Assembly (NCBI GenBank): GCA_951813605.1
Contig: OX638379.1
Location: 3,590,062 to 3,654,061 of the forward strand
Direction of reading: 5' to 3'
Source: an uncultured Bryobacterales bacterium
GTDB taxonomy: Bacteria > Acidobacteriota > Terriglobia > Bryobacterales > UBA6623
Length of the DNA: 64,000 bases
Positions within the stretch are counted from its first letter, which is position 1, and every line of letters begins with the position of its first letter. The position numbers were made by a program, and so were the translations under genes. Shown piece by piece: positions 17,119 through 24,393 of the stretch. The notes under the pieces are model-generated. The model saw nothing but the letters and a program-made list of their open reading frames with translations, was not told where the DNA came from and made no database searches.

Positions 17119-18690
17119 TTGCTGCCCCTGGATCGACGAGCTTTTGTTGGTTTGCTGGCGGGAACTCCCGCGCTGCGAGCGCAAGGCCCGGACGTGGAGG
17201 TGCACATCGATCTCGGCCAAGAAACAGCCACTATCAGCCCACTGCTTTACGGACACTTCGCCGAACACATCGGACGAGTGATCTACGAAGGTGCTTGGGT
17301 TGGCCTCGATTCCCCGATTCCGAACCTAGACGGCTTGCGACTCGATACGCTGGAGGCCCTGAAGCGTGTGCGGCCCGCTGTGATCCGCTGGCCTGGCGGC
17401 TGCTTCGCTGACACCTACCACTGGGAGGACGGCGTCGGGCCTGTCGAGGAGCGCCCAACCCGGAGGAATCACTGGTGGCTGCGCGAAGAGCCCAACACCT
17501 TCGGAACGGCCGAATTCATTCGCTGGTGCAATTTGCTTGGCGCCGAACCCTATCCCAGCGTAAACGTAGGCTCCGGCACGGTTACCGAGGCCATTAACTG
17601 GCTGCACTATTGCAATGGAACCGAAGCAACCGGCTACGCGGGACTGCGAAGGAGCCATGGCCGGGCCGAGCCCTACGGCGTTAAGTGGTGGGGCATTGGC
17701 AACGAGAACTGGGGCTGTGGCGGCCTTTTTTCTCCGCAGGAGTTCGCACAGCGGTTTCGCCAATTTGCAGTTTATTTCAAGCGACTCGGTCTCACTCCGG
17801 GCTTGCAGCTTGTAGCAGCAGGGCATAATGCGCCGGGTTGGAACCTGAAGTTCCTGGAAGCCGTCGGGCCTGGGCTGCCATATCTCGACCACGTCTCATT
17901 CCATCGCTACTTCCGTCGAGGACACAGCACTGGCTTCACCGACGACGAGTACCTGGAATTGATGCTGGATGTCACTGATTTCGAGGAGCTGATCCAGGAG
18001 TCCTTGCAAGCGATCGACCAAGTGCAACCAATGCGCGCGAAGATACGCGTTTTCGGACCCCTCAAGCCCAAGCCGATCGGCCTGGTCATCGACGAATGGG
18101 GAGCTTGGCACAGCGACCCGGTTATCGAGGATGGCTTCTCGCAGCGGGGCGTCATGCGCGAGGCGATTTTCGCGGCAAGCTGCCTGAATCTGTTTCAGCG
18201 TTACGCCGGGCGCATTGCGATGACGAACATCGCGCAAGTCGCGAACTGCTTGCACTCGCTGGTCCTCACGAAGGAATCGAAGATGGCCGTCACTCCGACG
18301 TTCCATGTCTACGAGATGTACCGGGCTCACCAGGGCGCGAGAGCGCTGCGGGCTGAAATCGAAAAAGCTTCAGCGATCGGCCTCGGCGATCGCACCCAAC
18401 CGAGCGTAAGCGTTTCCGCCTCCCGGTCCGGGAGCCAGGTTCTTATAACGCTGGTCAACCAACACCCGACGGAGAGCGTCGATGCCGCCATCGGTCTCAC
18501 TGGGGGTGACGTCGAAGAAGCGACAGGACGATCTCTTGCGGGGTCAAGCGTACGAGCGGAGAACACAGTGGAAGAACCCTCGACGGTTGTGCCAGAGGAC
18601 ACCGCGGTCGGACTTGAGGAACACGGGCTCCGGGTTCGACTTCTACCCGGAAGCGTGCAAGCGGTCACGCTGCGGCTGGGCACAGCGTGA
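17119..18690 (+). CDS. GH51 alpha-L-arabinofuranosidase, exported, 523 aa
   Basis: The catalytic acid/base Glu196 is in GIGNENWG and the nucleophile Glu326 in VIDEWGAWH, both hallmarks of GH51. The barrel opens with SPLLYGHFAEHIGR and the RWPGGCFADTYHWEDGVGP block. The enzyme removes terminal alpha-L-arabinofuranosyl residues from arabinans or arabinoxylans. The leader MLPLDRRAFVGLLAGTPALRA indicates export. Upstream of the barrel the only in-frame start candidate after the stop at 17083 is a TTG at 17119, with no clear Shine-Dalgarno, so expression may be low or the start may be unusual. The length fits the family. Confidence 0.9.
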   Translation: MLPLDRRAFVGLLAGTPALRAQGPDVEVHIDLGQETATISPLLYGHFAEHIGRVIYEGAWVGLDSPIPNLDGLRLDTLEALKRVRPAVIRWPGGCFADTYHWEDGVGPVEERPTRRNHWWLREEPNTFGTAEFIRWCNLLGAEPYPSVNVGSGTVTEAINWLHYCNGTEATGYAGLRRSHGRAEPYGVKWWGIGNENWGCGGLFSPQEFAQRFRQFAVYFKRLGLTPGLQLVAAGHNAPGWNLKFLEAVGPGLPYLDHVSFHRYFRRGHSTGFTDDEYLELMLDVTDFEELIQESLQAIDQVQPMRAKIRVFGPLKPKPIGLVIDEWGAWHSDPVIEDGFSQRGVMREAIFAASCLNLFQRYAGRIAMTNIAQVANCLHSLVLTKESKMAVTPTFHVYEMYRAHQGARALRAEIEKASAIGLGDRTQPSVSVSASRSGSQVLITLVNQHPTESVDAAIGLTGGDVEEATGRSLAGSSVRAENTVEEPSTVVPEDTAVGLEEHGLRVRLLPGSVQAVTLRLGTA

Positions 18691-19099: not shown

Positions 19100-19996
19100 A
19101 TGGCTGCAACACGGATCGGGCGTCAAGCCGGAGTAGCTCTCTTGTCGGCAACTGCACTTGCGGCAAGTGGCGAGCTGAGGGCCCAGGAGGTTCCCAAGCA
19201 GCCTTACATCGTCTCCGTGGCAGAAGTCGCCGTGATACGCCATCGAGGGAACGACTTCTGGAGCAGGCCCGATCTCGTGGTTCAGGTCCAGCGACAGGAC
19301 CGGGCCATCTTGAATCAAACATACCGGCTCAAGAACGAGCTTTACACACTGCGAAAGGAATCAGCTGCCGTCGGTGCCCGATTGCGGCAATTGGATGCGA
19401 AAAAGAAAGAGTCGGAAGTCACTCCCGGCAAACCGTTGACTGATGTGCAGCTCGAGCGACTGGCAGGACTGGTCGCGGCGGAGGCGGAAACATGCGCCAA
19501 ACTGTCTTCGGGCAAATGTAGGGCATGCTCGCCATATGATGAAACCGAACCGTGTCCGCAGTGCGCCAAGTGCGCAGAACTGCGATATTTAAAAAAGCGG
19601 AAGGTTGACAGCGAGGTGGTGCCTGGCGAGCCCCTTACCGAAAAGGAATCTTTGGAAGTCGATAGGCTGACGCAAAGGCAAACCAAACTGAAAAATACGA
19701 TTTCCGACACCCAGAAGGAACTCAGGCGACTGTATGCTGCCATTACGGGTCGCACGCCGTCCGTTGAAACGAATATGAAGGTGGTGAACTTCGGCAACCG
19801 GAAGCTGCTTACAGTTTTCCCCGGCGACATTCTCGAAATCTCCGTATGGGACGATGACATTGGCGATGACGACCTGTACGGGAAGACGGTGGTCGCCCTA
19901 GACCGTCAGATGCTCGACGCAGGTGAACTGAGAGTTTCGATGCCGAACGTTCAACATGTTCAGCTTTTATTTGCTCCCCGTCACAAAGAGCCCTAG
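19100..19996 (+). CDS. exported C2-like protein with coiled-coil and six-cysteine insertion, 298 aa
   Basis: Signal peptide residues 1-28. Residues 36-75 (IVSVAEVAVI..PDLVVQVQ) and 228-293 (LEISVWDDDIGDDDLYGKTVVAL) resemble the two halves of a C2-type beta-sandwich, with acidic clusters (DDDIGDDD) that could bind calcium. Between them lies an insertion predicted to be two long helices, with a six-cysteine cluster at the tip: Cys132, 140, 143, 152, 155 and 158 (two CxxC pairs plus two more). The helices carry a duplicated motif: SEVTPGKPLT (105-114) and SEVVPGEPLT (171-180). An antiparallel coiled-coil hairpin capped by a zinc or disulfide knuckle is the simplest reading. No known family recognised; domain calls are inference. 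Confidence 0.7.
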   Translation: MAATRIGRQAGVALLSATALAASGELRAQEVPKQPYIVSVAEVAVIRHRGNDFWSRPDLVVQVQRQDRAILNQTYRLKNELYTLRKESAAVGARLRQLDAKKKESEVTPGKPLTDVQLERLAGLVAAEAETCAKLSSGKCRACSPYDETEPCPQCAKCAELRYLKKRKVDSEVVPGEPLTEKESLEVDRLTQRQTKLKNTISDTQKELRRLYAAITGRTPSVETNMKVVNFGNRKLLTVFPGDILEISVWDDDIGDDDLYGKTVVALDRQMLDAGELRVSMPNVQHVQLLFAPRHKEP

Positions 19997-20259
19997 CTCT
20001 AGCGTGGGCATTCAGAAAGGCAGTGCGGGGAGATCTGCGTGGGTTAACGGCATGATTCTGATCTTGTACGTTCGGGTTGGCCAAACGCCGTAGTCCAAAA
20101 CTGTTTCTTGCAATCTCTTCCTACTGCAGAATAGACAGCCGGCTATGGGATCCCGATTGCCCGCATCCAGCGATGTCGCCACCTCGGAAGTGCGCCGTGA
20201 ACAGATCCGCCAGCAACTGGCGATGATTGGGGACGTCTGCTCCGGCGCGCTCTCCCAGC

Positions 20260-20548
20260 GCCGCATGGGCGGACGGCGCTTCTTGTACGAGGCATGCGCC
20301 AGAGAGTAGCGGATCAGGTGCGCAATGCATGTCTGCACTGTGGCCAGCGCATAGACCGTTTCGATCGCCTCCGGAAATCTTTTCAAACCGTCCAACACCG
20401 TGGTCAAGACGTCCTGTGACCCCCACGTTTTCAACTCGTTCATCACGACCAGCCAGAACTCCGTGCCATCCGTCTGCTCGGTCCGCAGGCCTAGCACCTC
20501 CTTGCAGCCTTGGCAACTCATGCCGATCGCCAGGCAGACCGCTCTTAT
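20260..20548 (-). pseudogene. IS256-family transposase fragment
   Basis: The minus frame contains the recognisable IS256 core: KEVLGLRTEQTDGTEFWLVV, then VLDGLKRFPEAIETVYALAT and TVQTCIAHLIRYSLAHASYK. The frame is disturbed after YKKRRPP, and neither the N-terminal third nor the catalytic C-terminal part is present. No inverted repeats are visible. It is an old remnant. Confidence 0.75.
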
Positions 20549-20734
20549 GCGCGCTCCAGACAGGAGCAGTAAGGAGGTAGCTGCACCGTCGAATTCGCAC
20601 CCGGATCCTCCTATGGATTGCAAAGTTGCGAAAAAGCGATGGGAAACCGCAGCGACCTAGGAATCAGACTGGAGCGCCACAGGGAATTCCAGTTGGACCG
20701 ACGGTTCGTGGACTCTAGCGGTTGGCGGCTTGAC

Positions 20735-21044
20735 TGAAGCAACCTCTTGGGCGCAAACTTCGCCTACGCAGATCTCTCAGGAGCGAATTTCAGCCGCGCA
20801 AATCCGTGCGGTACGCAATTTCTTGAGCAGACGTCCGTAACGCGAATCTCACGTTTGCATTCCTAACGGGTGCATGGTTCGCACCTGATCGAAACGGTTT
20901 GGATTGAACGCGGAACCATAACGGCGGTGTGGGAATCCTCTCGGCGCGAATGGCTCCGATCCGATTGACGCAACCGGCAAGGCCAACTTGGAGATCGCCT
21001 TGACCTACGACGAGTTCACCGTGCCGGAGCCGCCGTCCAAGTAG
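20735..21044 (+). pseudogene. decayed pentapeptide-repeat protein gene
   Basis: Pieces of A(D/N)LxX repeats appear in different frames: GANFAYADLSGANFSRAN from about 20750, NANLTFAFLTGAWFA near 20840, and a C-terminal tail ending TYDEFTVPEPPSK with TAG at 21042-21044. At least two frameshifts separate the pieces, so no full protein can be made. Bases 21045-21336 then show nothing recognisable. Confidence 0.6.
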
Positions 21045-21336: not shown

Positions 21337-21870
21337 TTAGCGCGTAGTGAGGCGCCTCGAGAACTGCAGGGCGACAGAGGGACAGGCCCGCAAGACACGT
21401 TCTAATGCCGCAGCTTCCATCACATCTACGGTCAGGCCGTACTTGACCTTAACTTTCACGACGGTATCAGCGAACCAGCAGCGATTACTCGTCGGCAGCC
21501 ATTCCGCCGCGTCCTTGTCCGATTTGACGCGCCGATTGAGAGCGGGTTCGGCTAGTGTCAGGTTGAGCAGGTCATTGGCGAATTGCTTTTTGATCTCCGG
21601 CGTTGCGGCGCACAAGCCGCTGTCGTGCGCCTCGGAGAGGGCCACCATGTGCTCGATGTCCGTCGTGGTCTGCGAGTGGTACCACACACCCGTATACGGG
21701 CTGTAGACGCCGCCGAGCGAAGCGACCACGGCGTTCTCGACGGACGGCGAATAGCGATAGTCACTTGCGCTGTAGTCTGAGCAGCGGTTTTCCTCCGCGA
21801 CAACCAGCCCTCTCCAAGCTTGGCCTGGCAGAACGGCTGCCAAGTACAAAGCGATGACTAGAGCTCTCAT
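21337..21870 (-). CDS. secreted HNH nuclease, DUF1524/GmrSD-C-like, 177 aa
   Basis: A signal peptide (MRALVIALYLAAVLPGQAWRG) is followed by CSDYSASDYRYSPSVENAVV, YSPYTGVWY, and the HNH core DIEHMVALSEAHDSGLC with its partner block FANDLLNLTLAEPALNRRVKSDKDAAEWLP. This pattern is that of exported HNH nucleases related to the C-terminal domain of GmrSD (DUF1524); the His of DIEH and the Asn residues of the second block are probably catalytic. They may degrade extracellular DNA for nutrients or competition. AAGGGG lies a few bases before the ATG. A scrap of a paralogue lies at 370-456. The gene stands isolated among transposon debris. Confidence 0.82.
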   Translation of the reverse strand: MRALVIALYLAAVLPGQAWRGLVVAEENRCSDYSASDYRYSPSVENAVVASLGGVYSPYTGVWYHSQTTTDIEHMVALSEAHDSGLCAATPEIKKQFANDLLNLTLAEPALNRRVKSDKDAAEWLPTSNRCWFADTVVKVKVKYGLTVDVMEAAALERVLRACPSVALQFSRRLTTR

Positions 21871-22920
21871 GGATCCCCTTCTTAGGATAAACTTTGCTAC
21901 GCCGAACATAGCTACTCGTACCGGGTTGCCGCCGAATTCCCGTCCGCGAGCTGAGGCATGTCGGTCCGGTCGGGTCGGGACGGTAGAGGACCATGGCGAC
22001 GGCCGGCCAGGACTCGCCTCGGCTCGCGATGATCGTGACATACCTGCCCGTCTTCGACTCGACCGCATCGAGAATCTTTCAAGAGTTCGACTTGGAAAGC
22101 TGGAAGACGGTTTCCTCGTCGCCCCTTATGACCGCAAACCACTTGTATCGGTCGGATGGTTGTTTCGTATGCACCCGCCCGCTCCCCTGCGAACGCCCCT
22201 GCGGTCCGGGAACCCGCCGCGAGCCTGTCCTGTGCAGCGCAGGACCCCATCGCCGCGGCTCTAAGACCAGCACGTCCGCCAAGACGCGCGACGCCTGCCG
22301 CACCCACTGGAACGCTTGGGAGGCGCGGGCCGCTGAAATCGGCGCGGAGGCGCGGGCCGCCATTGTGGGGTGCGGTGGCGCGCGGCGCGAGGGCGGCTCC
22401 CGAGCGCGGAGATCAGGACAGGGAGCCGGCACACGGCCGTGTACAGGCTACCGCCCGGTCAAGCCGATGACAATCCCGGGGCACCTCACTCCGGAAGCGC
22501 ACCGCCATCGGCCTGCAACAATGTGCTGGACGGCGATCCGTGACTGTGGGGAAGGGACGCATGATCAAACAATTGGCTTGTCGAAACAGTTGCCCTGGGC
22601 GCCCATGGATTGCCGGACGCCGGCCGGCTCGCAGCGGCGGGTGAACGCCAGCGCCGTGTACTGGCTGCCGCGATTGGATACTGGGCCTGGTAGGCCCTGA
22701 CGAATTCGAACACTCTTACGGAATCGAATGGGGATTATCGACGACAGTGCCGAAAAACGCGGATTTTCCTAGCCTGAGCGCTTGCCATTATCGGCACTTT
22801 CCTGCCTGCCGTGCCAGCGACGCTGGCGATCATGCCACCAGCGTCTCGGTCGCATGGCCGCCTTTTCCTGCGAAGCCCGGAGACCCTCCGCCCGCATCTG
22901 CGGTGATAGTTCGAAATCGC
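21871..22920. other. gene-poor stretch with transposon debris
   Basis: About 1 kb with no intact gene. The only recognisable item is the IS3-type transposase fragment at 22565-22675. ORFs of 75-235 codons here have biased, repeat-like composition (Arg/Ala/Pro) and resemble no family, so I treat them as spurious. Confidence 0.5.
22565..22675 (-). pseudogene. IS3-family transposase fragment
   Basis: A minus frame of 36 codons reads NRGSQYTALAFTRRCEPAG then SMGAQGNCFD before a TGA at 22565-22567. This is the DRGSQYtS..F...C...G...SMs..G.c.DNa region around the second catalytic Asp of IS3-type integrase-fold transposases, with the key D of DRGSQY changed to N. Nothing of the flanking catalytic regions remains in frame. 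Confidence 0.65.
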
Positions 22921-24393
22921 TCAGTGGCGCAGGATTGTTGGTTGCAAGTCCGGGATATCCTTGTCGGCCGGAAAGTAAGGCCTCTTGAGCCTGCGGAACT
23001 CCAAGTGGTCGAGAACGGCCGGCGTCGGTCCCGGCGTGTCGAGCATGAACGCTCTCTTCGCGGATTGCAGATAGGTCATTCTGTAGTTCATGGGATTCTT
23101 TACGACGATGAACTTGGCCGCGCCAGTGTCCATCCTCAGCGAGCGAAACTGTTCATCTGCCCATTCGTAGGTAGGGTGCGAGGCAATGAGCACCTGCACC
23201 TTGCCGACCTCAAGCATCGCCGACGGTCCCATGACGCCCCTTTGCGCACCCCAGATGCCACCGGAATAACGGAATAGCCCGTCCGACAACCTCTTGACCA
23301 CACCTTCGACAGCGATGGGCTGGCCCCATTGCGGGTCCAGCTTGTGCCCAAGGTCCACGCGGATCTGTTTCCGTGGTCCCGCCTCGTGACAACGCATTGC
23401 AGCCTCGGGGTCTACCACAGGAACGAGCGAAAGCTCGTCGACCTCGGCCTGCAGCAACGCTCTGAGGCTAGCCACGCTGTCTCCCATTGCTCCGCCCCCG
23501 CACGTATCCGCCGTCTCCACGAGGAGAACCGGCCCGCCGTCGATGCGGAGTCCCTCCGAGACCGCCTCGGAAGGCCGGTACACTTCCGGAACAAGATCGA
23601 ATCGTCTTTCCCAGTACTTGCTGGCCACTTCCCGAGCCAGTGCGACCGCCCTGTCTGCGTCGCCATCGGTGATGACGAGACCGCCGCTGCCCATGTCGGT
23701 ACAGTCCAAATATGGATTGACCAAGAAAACGCTTGTCGACAGCACTCCATTCCGGCCCTCCCAGCTCTTCGCCAGACGCATGAGGTCGGCGAATGGGGTG
23801 TCGCCCTCGGTGCTTGCGTTGACGGCACCAGTGAGGACCGGCACCTTAGCCATCGCCATGGCTGGCCTGACCTTGCCGTCGAGCACGTCGAGCAGCAATC
23901 GCGCGCTCCGAGCACCGGTTTCGACGCTGTCTTTGTGCGGGTACGTTTCCCACGCCAGCAGGGCATCCGCGCAGCGGATCATCTTGTCCGTGACGTGCGC
24001 GTGAAGATCGAGCGTGGCTATCAGGGGCGCGCCTGGACCGAGCAGTTCGCGAACCGCGTCCAAAAGGTCCCCCTCGGGGTCTTCCAAATCAACCGCGCTG
24101 GCAGCACCGTGCAATCCGAGCAGCACCGCGCTGCAGGCCTCGAATCCCCGGAGCGCCTCCAGCAGCTCACCCTTCAGTTGGCGATAGCAGCGCGACGAGA
24201 GCAGACCTCCAGGGCAGGCGCTCGCCGAGATGAGAGGCAGGACCTCGACCCCGCGTTCGCGGAGAACCCGCAGCATTCCCCCCACGACTCCCGAAGCCTC
24301 GCTAAGGATCTCGGCTCCACGTCGGAGCTCCGTCCTTTCAAAGTCCTCGAGTTCCGCAGTCGGTTCGACCCGGCCATTGCATTCCGTGAGCAT
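22921..24393 (-). CDS. M81-family (MlrC/DUF1485) metallopeptidase-like protein, 490 aa
   Basis: The N-terminal MlrC domain is seen in SASACPGGLLSSRCY, LLGLHGAASAVDLEDPEGDLL and IATLDLHAHVTDKMIRCADALLAWETYPHKD (metal-binding His and Asp); the C-terminal MlrC_C domain includes VLLVETADTCGGGAMGDS and KNPMNYRMTY. MlrC linearises and degrades microcystin in sphingomonads; most relatives are uncharacterised amidohydrolase-like enzymes. The first ATG (24391-24393) lies inside what should be the first beta strand: the frame upstream encodes RSYRIAVGS with no ATG, GTG or TTG before a stop at 24427-24429. An ATA at 24424-24426, 9 nt after GGAAGGAAG, may be the true start. Confidence 0.82.
   Translation of the reverse strand: MLTECNGRVEPTAELEDFERTELRRGAEILSEASGVVGGMLRVLRERGVEVLPLISASACPGGLLSSRCYRQLKGELLEALRGFEACSAVLLGLHGAASAVDLEDPEGDLLDAVRELLGPGAPLIATLDLHAHVTDKMIRCADALLAWETYPHKDSVETGARSARLLLDVLDGKVRPAMAMAKVPVLTGAVNASTEGDTPFADLMRLAKSWEGRNGVLSTSVFLVNPYLDCTDMGSGGLVITDGDADRAVALAREVASKYWERRFDLVPEVYRPSEAVSEGLRIDGGPVLLVETADTCGGGAMGDSVASLRALLQAEVDELSLVPVVDPEAAMRCHEAGPRKQIRVDLGHKLDPQWGQPIAVEGVVKRLSDGLFRYSGGIWGAQRGVMGPSAMLEVGKVQVLIASHPTYEWADEQFRSLRMDTGAAKFIVVKNPMNYRMTYLQSAKRAFMLDTPGPTPAVLDHLEFRRLKRPYFPADKDIPDLQPTILRH

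Follow-up and report, generated by a model that had tools for sequence, protein, structure and literature searches.

The window analysed here, a stretch of 64,000 nucleotides from the genome of an uncultured Bryobacterales bacterium, contains a gene (19100..19996, + strand) for a probably exported protein of 298 aa, in which a C2 domain is very likely split by a long, jointed helical hairpin. C2 domains are calcium-binding, membrane-docking modules best known from eukaryotes, where they have mainly been studied as cytosolic calcium sensors. The open reading frame starts with ATG, carries an in-frame TAA two codons upstream of it, and displays codon-position GC values of 0.63/0.42/0.62, a pattern characteristic of coding frames. 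Since homologues also exist, the frame represents a real gene, and inspection of the sequence ahead of the ATG revealed no evident Shine–Dalgarno-like stretch. Residues 1–28 (19100..19183, +) likely constitute a Sec signal peptide, as the hydropathy maximum lies at approximately residues 9–23, preceded by Arg residues, and pLDDT stays below 50 for residues 1–31; cleavage after A28 is a guess. The hydropathy peak agrees with a preliminary description of the sequence, in which the protein was regarded as exported. Two further features recorded there are accurate, namely six Cys residues (132, 140, 143, 152, 155, and 158), with none elsewhere in the protein, and a duplicated motif, SEVTPGKPLT at residues 105–114 and SEVVPGEPLT at residues 171–180, flanking the Cys cluster. 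The two motifs match at 8/10 positions, a value that none of 200 protein shuffles reached (the highest being 7), while random placement would bring all six Cys into a stretch of 27 residues (of 298) with P ~1.5e-5.

The AlphaFold2 model, built on a four-row alignment (mean pLDDT 78.3, pTM 0.59), predicts strands at residues 36–45, 58–65, 228–239, 244–251, 258–266, 276–281, and 284–293, and helices at residues 68–105, 115–133, 153–171, and 181–215. These helices form an antiparallel hairpin (68–215) of about 148 residues that interrupts a beta-sandwich (36–65 and 228–293) between strands 58–65 and 228–239, i.e., in the connection after the second strand and inside the C2 domain. Both the antiparallel helical hairpin that had been anticipated and the sandwich, whose presence in a predicted structure had been set beforehand as a check, are therefore found in the model. 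Along the + strand, the N-terminal C2 part with strands 36–45 and 58–65 and calcium loop 1, bearing D52 and D58 (19205..19294), is followed by the outgoing basal helix 68–105 (19301..19414), joint 1 with the first motif, where the helix breaks and a new cap T114-x-x-Q117 starts (19412..19441), the outgoing distal helix 115–133 (19442..19498), and the tip, comprising C132, C140-x2-C143-x8-C152-x2-C155, and C158 (19493..19573). The chain then returns through the distal helix 153–171 (19556..19612), joint 2 with the second motif and the helix cap T180-x-x-E183 (19610..19639), and the basal helix 181–215 (19640..19744) to the C-terminal C2 part (216–293; 19745..19978), which holds calcium loop 3, DDDIGDDDLYG (251–261). 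The helices are delimited by the model and the joints by model, motif, and conservation, the tip is read from the sequence, and the two C2 parts rest on the model, conservation, and the matches described below. Because the two motifs break the outgoing and returning helices at near-equal distance from the base, the hairpin is jointed at one level; counting 1.5 Å for each of the 38 + 19 helical residues of an arm gives an estimated length of ~85 Å.

Besides the window protein, the searched genomes of its phylum contain eight relatives, divided between two further genera (g101 and g339), so that, within this sample, the family is rare and patchy, occurring in three genera and two classes. The absence of evident relatives in the window, already pointed out in the preliminary description, extends to the rest of the genome, and none occurred in ten congeners and 50 further related genomes, nor in a profile search of 256 other genomes of the order; the gene is strain-specific with respect to the ten congeners searched. 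One clear homologue, G220, emerged from a phylum sample; its identity is 37% over residues 75–294 in the scan and 33% by BLASTP (242 columns). G459 and G461 came from the family of G220, and five distant relatives, all from genus g339 (E 6e-7 to 6e-5), were added when the class of the window genome was scanned with a profile. No further relatives appeared in a final phylum sample searched with the nine-row profile, in GTDB genome contigs and IMG/VR scanned with a single sequence, in IMG/VR scanned with alignments A1–A3, or among plasmids and phages. Weak matches in G454, G502, G472, G585, and G738 were treated as coiled-coil chance matches, and in the three of these five loci whose frames were read (L043, L044, and L047) no frame had both C2 parts. 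Full-length genes are present in G461 and in all five g339 relatives, the latter with a Q/E/S/P-rich linker of about 100 residues between signal peptide and C2. The G220 gene has lost its N-terminal C2 part, and the G459 gene (L034 1104-1946, −) retains an intact N-terminal part and lacks, in frame, the region from just after joint 1 to loop 3. As side observations, an unrelated upstream N-terminal frame, protease-like by eye, enters the G220 gene out of frame (L031 4576-5963, −), a fusion that reflects either recombination or an assembly fault, while in G459 the deletion has taken out the greater part of the hairpin together with the central portion of the C2 domain, with the join at a Leu-Arg present on both sides.

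Structural comparison of the model with Foldseek candidates by VIA-align yielded a list consisting mostly of C2 domains. The aligned ranges extend from roughly residue 30 to residue 298 and so lie on both sides of the insertion. Hence, both sandwich parts jointly align to solved C2 domains, in keeping with the insertion between halves of a C2-like fold that had been proposed. The C2 chains aligned, including those of extended synaptotagmin, cPLA2, SMURF1, and Munc13, reached Z values of 10–11.7, mostly over 104–120 residues at 2.5–3.7 Å, the best match of the predicted model (Z 11.7) covering 119/131 residues. At the sequence level, Pfam C2 (PF00168, cut-off 22 bits) matches the intact protein at 14.5 bits over residues 242–272, and a comparison with the two sandwich parts joined, as the preliminary description had suggested, raised the score to 18.5 bits (E 0.0023), still below the cut-off. 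Independently, the N-terminal parts of the g339 relatives match Pfam C2 positions 2–30 at 16 bits, also below the cut-off. Among PDB sequences, the family profile has its top match, ELFDEDPDKDDFLG, in the loop-3 region of extended synaptotagmin-2 C2, in a chain solved with calcium. With each sequence score below its cut-off, the case for a C2 domain lies in their agreement with the fold match. No family covering the protein was found in Pfam (above cut-off), NCBIfam, PADLOC, or PHROGs. A GSH-S_N match of the g339 members, below the cut-off, was judged to be due to chance. The model of a relative devoid of tip Cys has the same order of strands and helices, with a poor sandwich (mean pLDDT 67.6) and a match list filled by the hairpin alone; this sandwich was too weak to provide a C2 match. 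The window protein has the predicted sandwich and the acidic positions of loops 1 and 3 in common with the C2 superfamily, from which it differs in being bacterial, probably exported, split by the hairpin, and under the Pfam cut-off in sequence score.

Conservation was counted over nine sequences, the window protein and its eight relatives, G220 and G459 being included only for the regions they retain; since the five from g339 hardly differ from one another, it rests on about four independent lineages. In all eight sequences retaining loop 1 (G220 excluded), position 52 is Asp and position 58 Asp or Glu, a spacing shared with the two loop-1 aspartates in synaptotagmin-type C2 domains. Likewise, position 251 is Asp or Glu and positions 253 and 258 are Asp in 8/8 sequences retaining loop 3 (G459 excluded). 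These five acidic residues occupy the places where C2 domains bind calcium, and their conservation in relatives retaining the loops favours the calcium-binding C2-like fold suggested earlier, the binding itself being inferred. The repeat on both arms also proved to be conserved in every relative retaining the region, with the pattern P-[LIV]-[ST]-x-x-[EDQ] at both joints: S105, P112, L113, S/T114, and E/Q117 are present in 9/9 sequences at joint 1, and P178, S/T180, and E/D183 in all eight that retain joint 2. From their sequence, these residues read as a helix stop, a proline turn, and a capping box.

The six-Cys cluster, on the other hand, is not the family feature that had been supposed: the full set is confined to the window protein, G220 retains the outer pair C132/C158, and the tips of G461 and the g339 relatives contain none. 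The latter possess two other Cys, located in loops 1 and 3, that could bridge one another. As the pair kept in G220, C132 and C158, which link the two distal helices at their ends, form the likeliest disulphide. The spacing C140-x2-C143-x8-C152-x2-C155 matches C4 zinc fingers. Disulphides would be as likely as zinc at this place in an exported protein. RecR has the same C-x2-C-x8-C-x2-C finger and a local match to the tip (CRAC...EPCPQCA, phmmer E 0.003), whereas the window protein has no other part of RecR and is probably exported; moreover, the RecR profile gave no match to the tip alone.

The nearest precedent found for this architecture is the C2HH of VPS34 (residues 170-210), where a C2 domain carries an inserted helical hairpin that binds RAB5/RAB1 and VPS15 (PMC13218723, PMC7946940, PMC6358306). 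The likeness is drawn at the level of a hairpin inside a C2 domain. However, the C2HH has about 40 residues and is part of a eukaryotic lipid kinase, whereas the hairpin of the window protein is far longer, jointed, and in a protein that stands alone and is probably exported; the PI3K helical and kinase domains that follow C2 are absent, as the frame ends after C2 and has no kinase match. Because VPS34 already has a hairpin inside its C2 domain, the architecture is not wholly new, contrary to the first impression. A C2 hairpin that is bacterial, probably exported, long, jointed, and variable at its tip was not found in profile libraries or in the limited open-access literature consulted. With the C2 fold known and one precedent for a hairpin insertion, the bacterial exported version thus appears undescribed, and its nine sequences make up a family without a name in the profile libraries searched.

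The function that we tentatively favour, without granting it even odds, is that of a calcium-dependent surface tether that keeps a stalk for protein binding clear of the membrane. The exported single-domain C2 protein would hold calcium on loops 1 and 3 through the acids at 52, 58, 251, 253, and 258, and the calcium-loaded sandwich would attach to a surface of anionic lipid or of lipopolysaccharide. Judged from C2 topology, the second strand (type II numbering) is presumably followed by a connection at the pole facing away from the calcium loops, and the hairpin would exit there. Given such an exit, the stalk would stand off the surface and offer its tip to a partner protein; in the window genome, a disulphide between C132 and C158 would lock the tip around a knuckle of four Cys, held by zinc or by two disulphides. 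A protein-binding stalk is plausible because the C2HH of VPS34 is a hairpin arm that binds proteins, a precedent that shows nothing about the window protein itself. A probably exported bacterial C2 domain with intact calcium positions and a long stalk whose tip varies between relatives offers a testable case, both of the way in which the fold accommodates an insertion of this size and of attachment to a bacterial surface under the control of calcium.

One point against the tether is that an exported protein would not come across the lipids usual in the cytosol. The absence of the usual anionic target lipids outside the cytosol favours an unlikely but serious alternative, in which the C2 fold is structural or binds glycans or proteins, calcium stabilizes the exported fold instead of docking it to lipid, and the hairpin acts as a rigid spacer or a dimerizing coiled coil. 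Many C2 domains do not bind lipid, and the linker of the g339 relatives resembles those of surface spacers. All calcium positions remain acidic in distant relatives, which speaks for calcium docking, although a structural calcium site would explain this as well. Returning to the tether, a more ambitious version of it is somewhat less probable than the structural reading: an undescribed family in which an extracytosolic, calcium-switched C2 domain anchors a jointed coiled-coil tentacle whose exchangeable tips (a zinc or disulphide knuckle, a single disulphide, or a plain loop) would recognize different partners.

The gene might also have been acquired horizontally and be in the process of loss, functionless in the window genome, which we consider improbable. 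It is absent from the ten congeners and the rest of the order searched, two g101 relatives (G220 and G459) are damaged, and a remnant of a Mutator/IS256-type transposase, matching only positions 181–271 of Pfam Transposase_mut (E 2e-22), lies directly 3' of it (20012-20623, −); yet, the frame is intact, its codon pattern is that of coding sequence, and all positions determining the fold are kept. Finally, an adaptor of an envelope transport machine whose hairpin touches a TolC-like channel is very improbable. MacA and EmrA, the top Foldseek matches by E-value, have, like HlyD, a long antiparallel helical hairpin interrupting a beta domain, but align with TM-scores of 0.13–0.17 and rmsd >20 Å, their beta domain being of the lipoyl type whereas that of the window protein matches C2, with no HlyD-family profile match and no such transporter among the annotated neighbouring genes.

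The genomic surroundings do not bear out the earlier idea of a system component: no system was found around the gene, nothing in the window resembles a joint operon around it, and the contexts read contain no conserved neighbour or partner hinting at function. In two g101 genomes, the gene comes shortly after, or overlaps, a frame whose product reads as an exported repeat protein, and in both g339 genomes read (L066 and L067) it is placed between genes for a sialidase-like lipoprotein and a Cache-like exported protein (names by eye); no context is common to all three groups. In the window, the 5' neighbour encodes an alpha-L-arabinofuranosidase (17119-18690), and a tRNA suspected near 18.9 kb was looked for and not found. 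Beyond the transposase remnant lies a gene for a GmrSD_C nuclease-domain (HNH-type) protein with a possible signal peptide (21337-22068, −). Since the arabinofuranosidase and an MlrC-like neighbour have no close counterparts in the ten congeners, synteny with these cannot be used. A short pentapeptide-repeat-like stretch at ~20745-20830 (+), LLGANFAYADLSGANFSRAN, is apparently a gene fragment, and the MlrC-like M81 protein (22921-24393, −) is duplicated in this genome, the other copy (79% identity) lying ~290 kb away.
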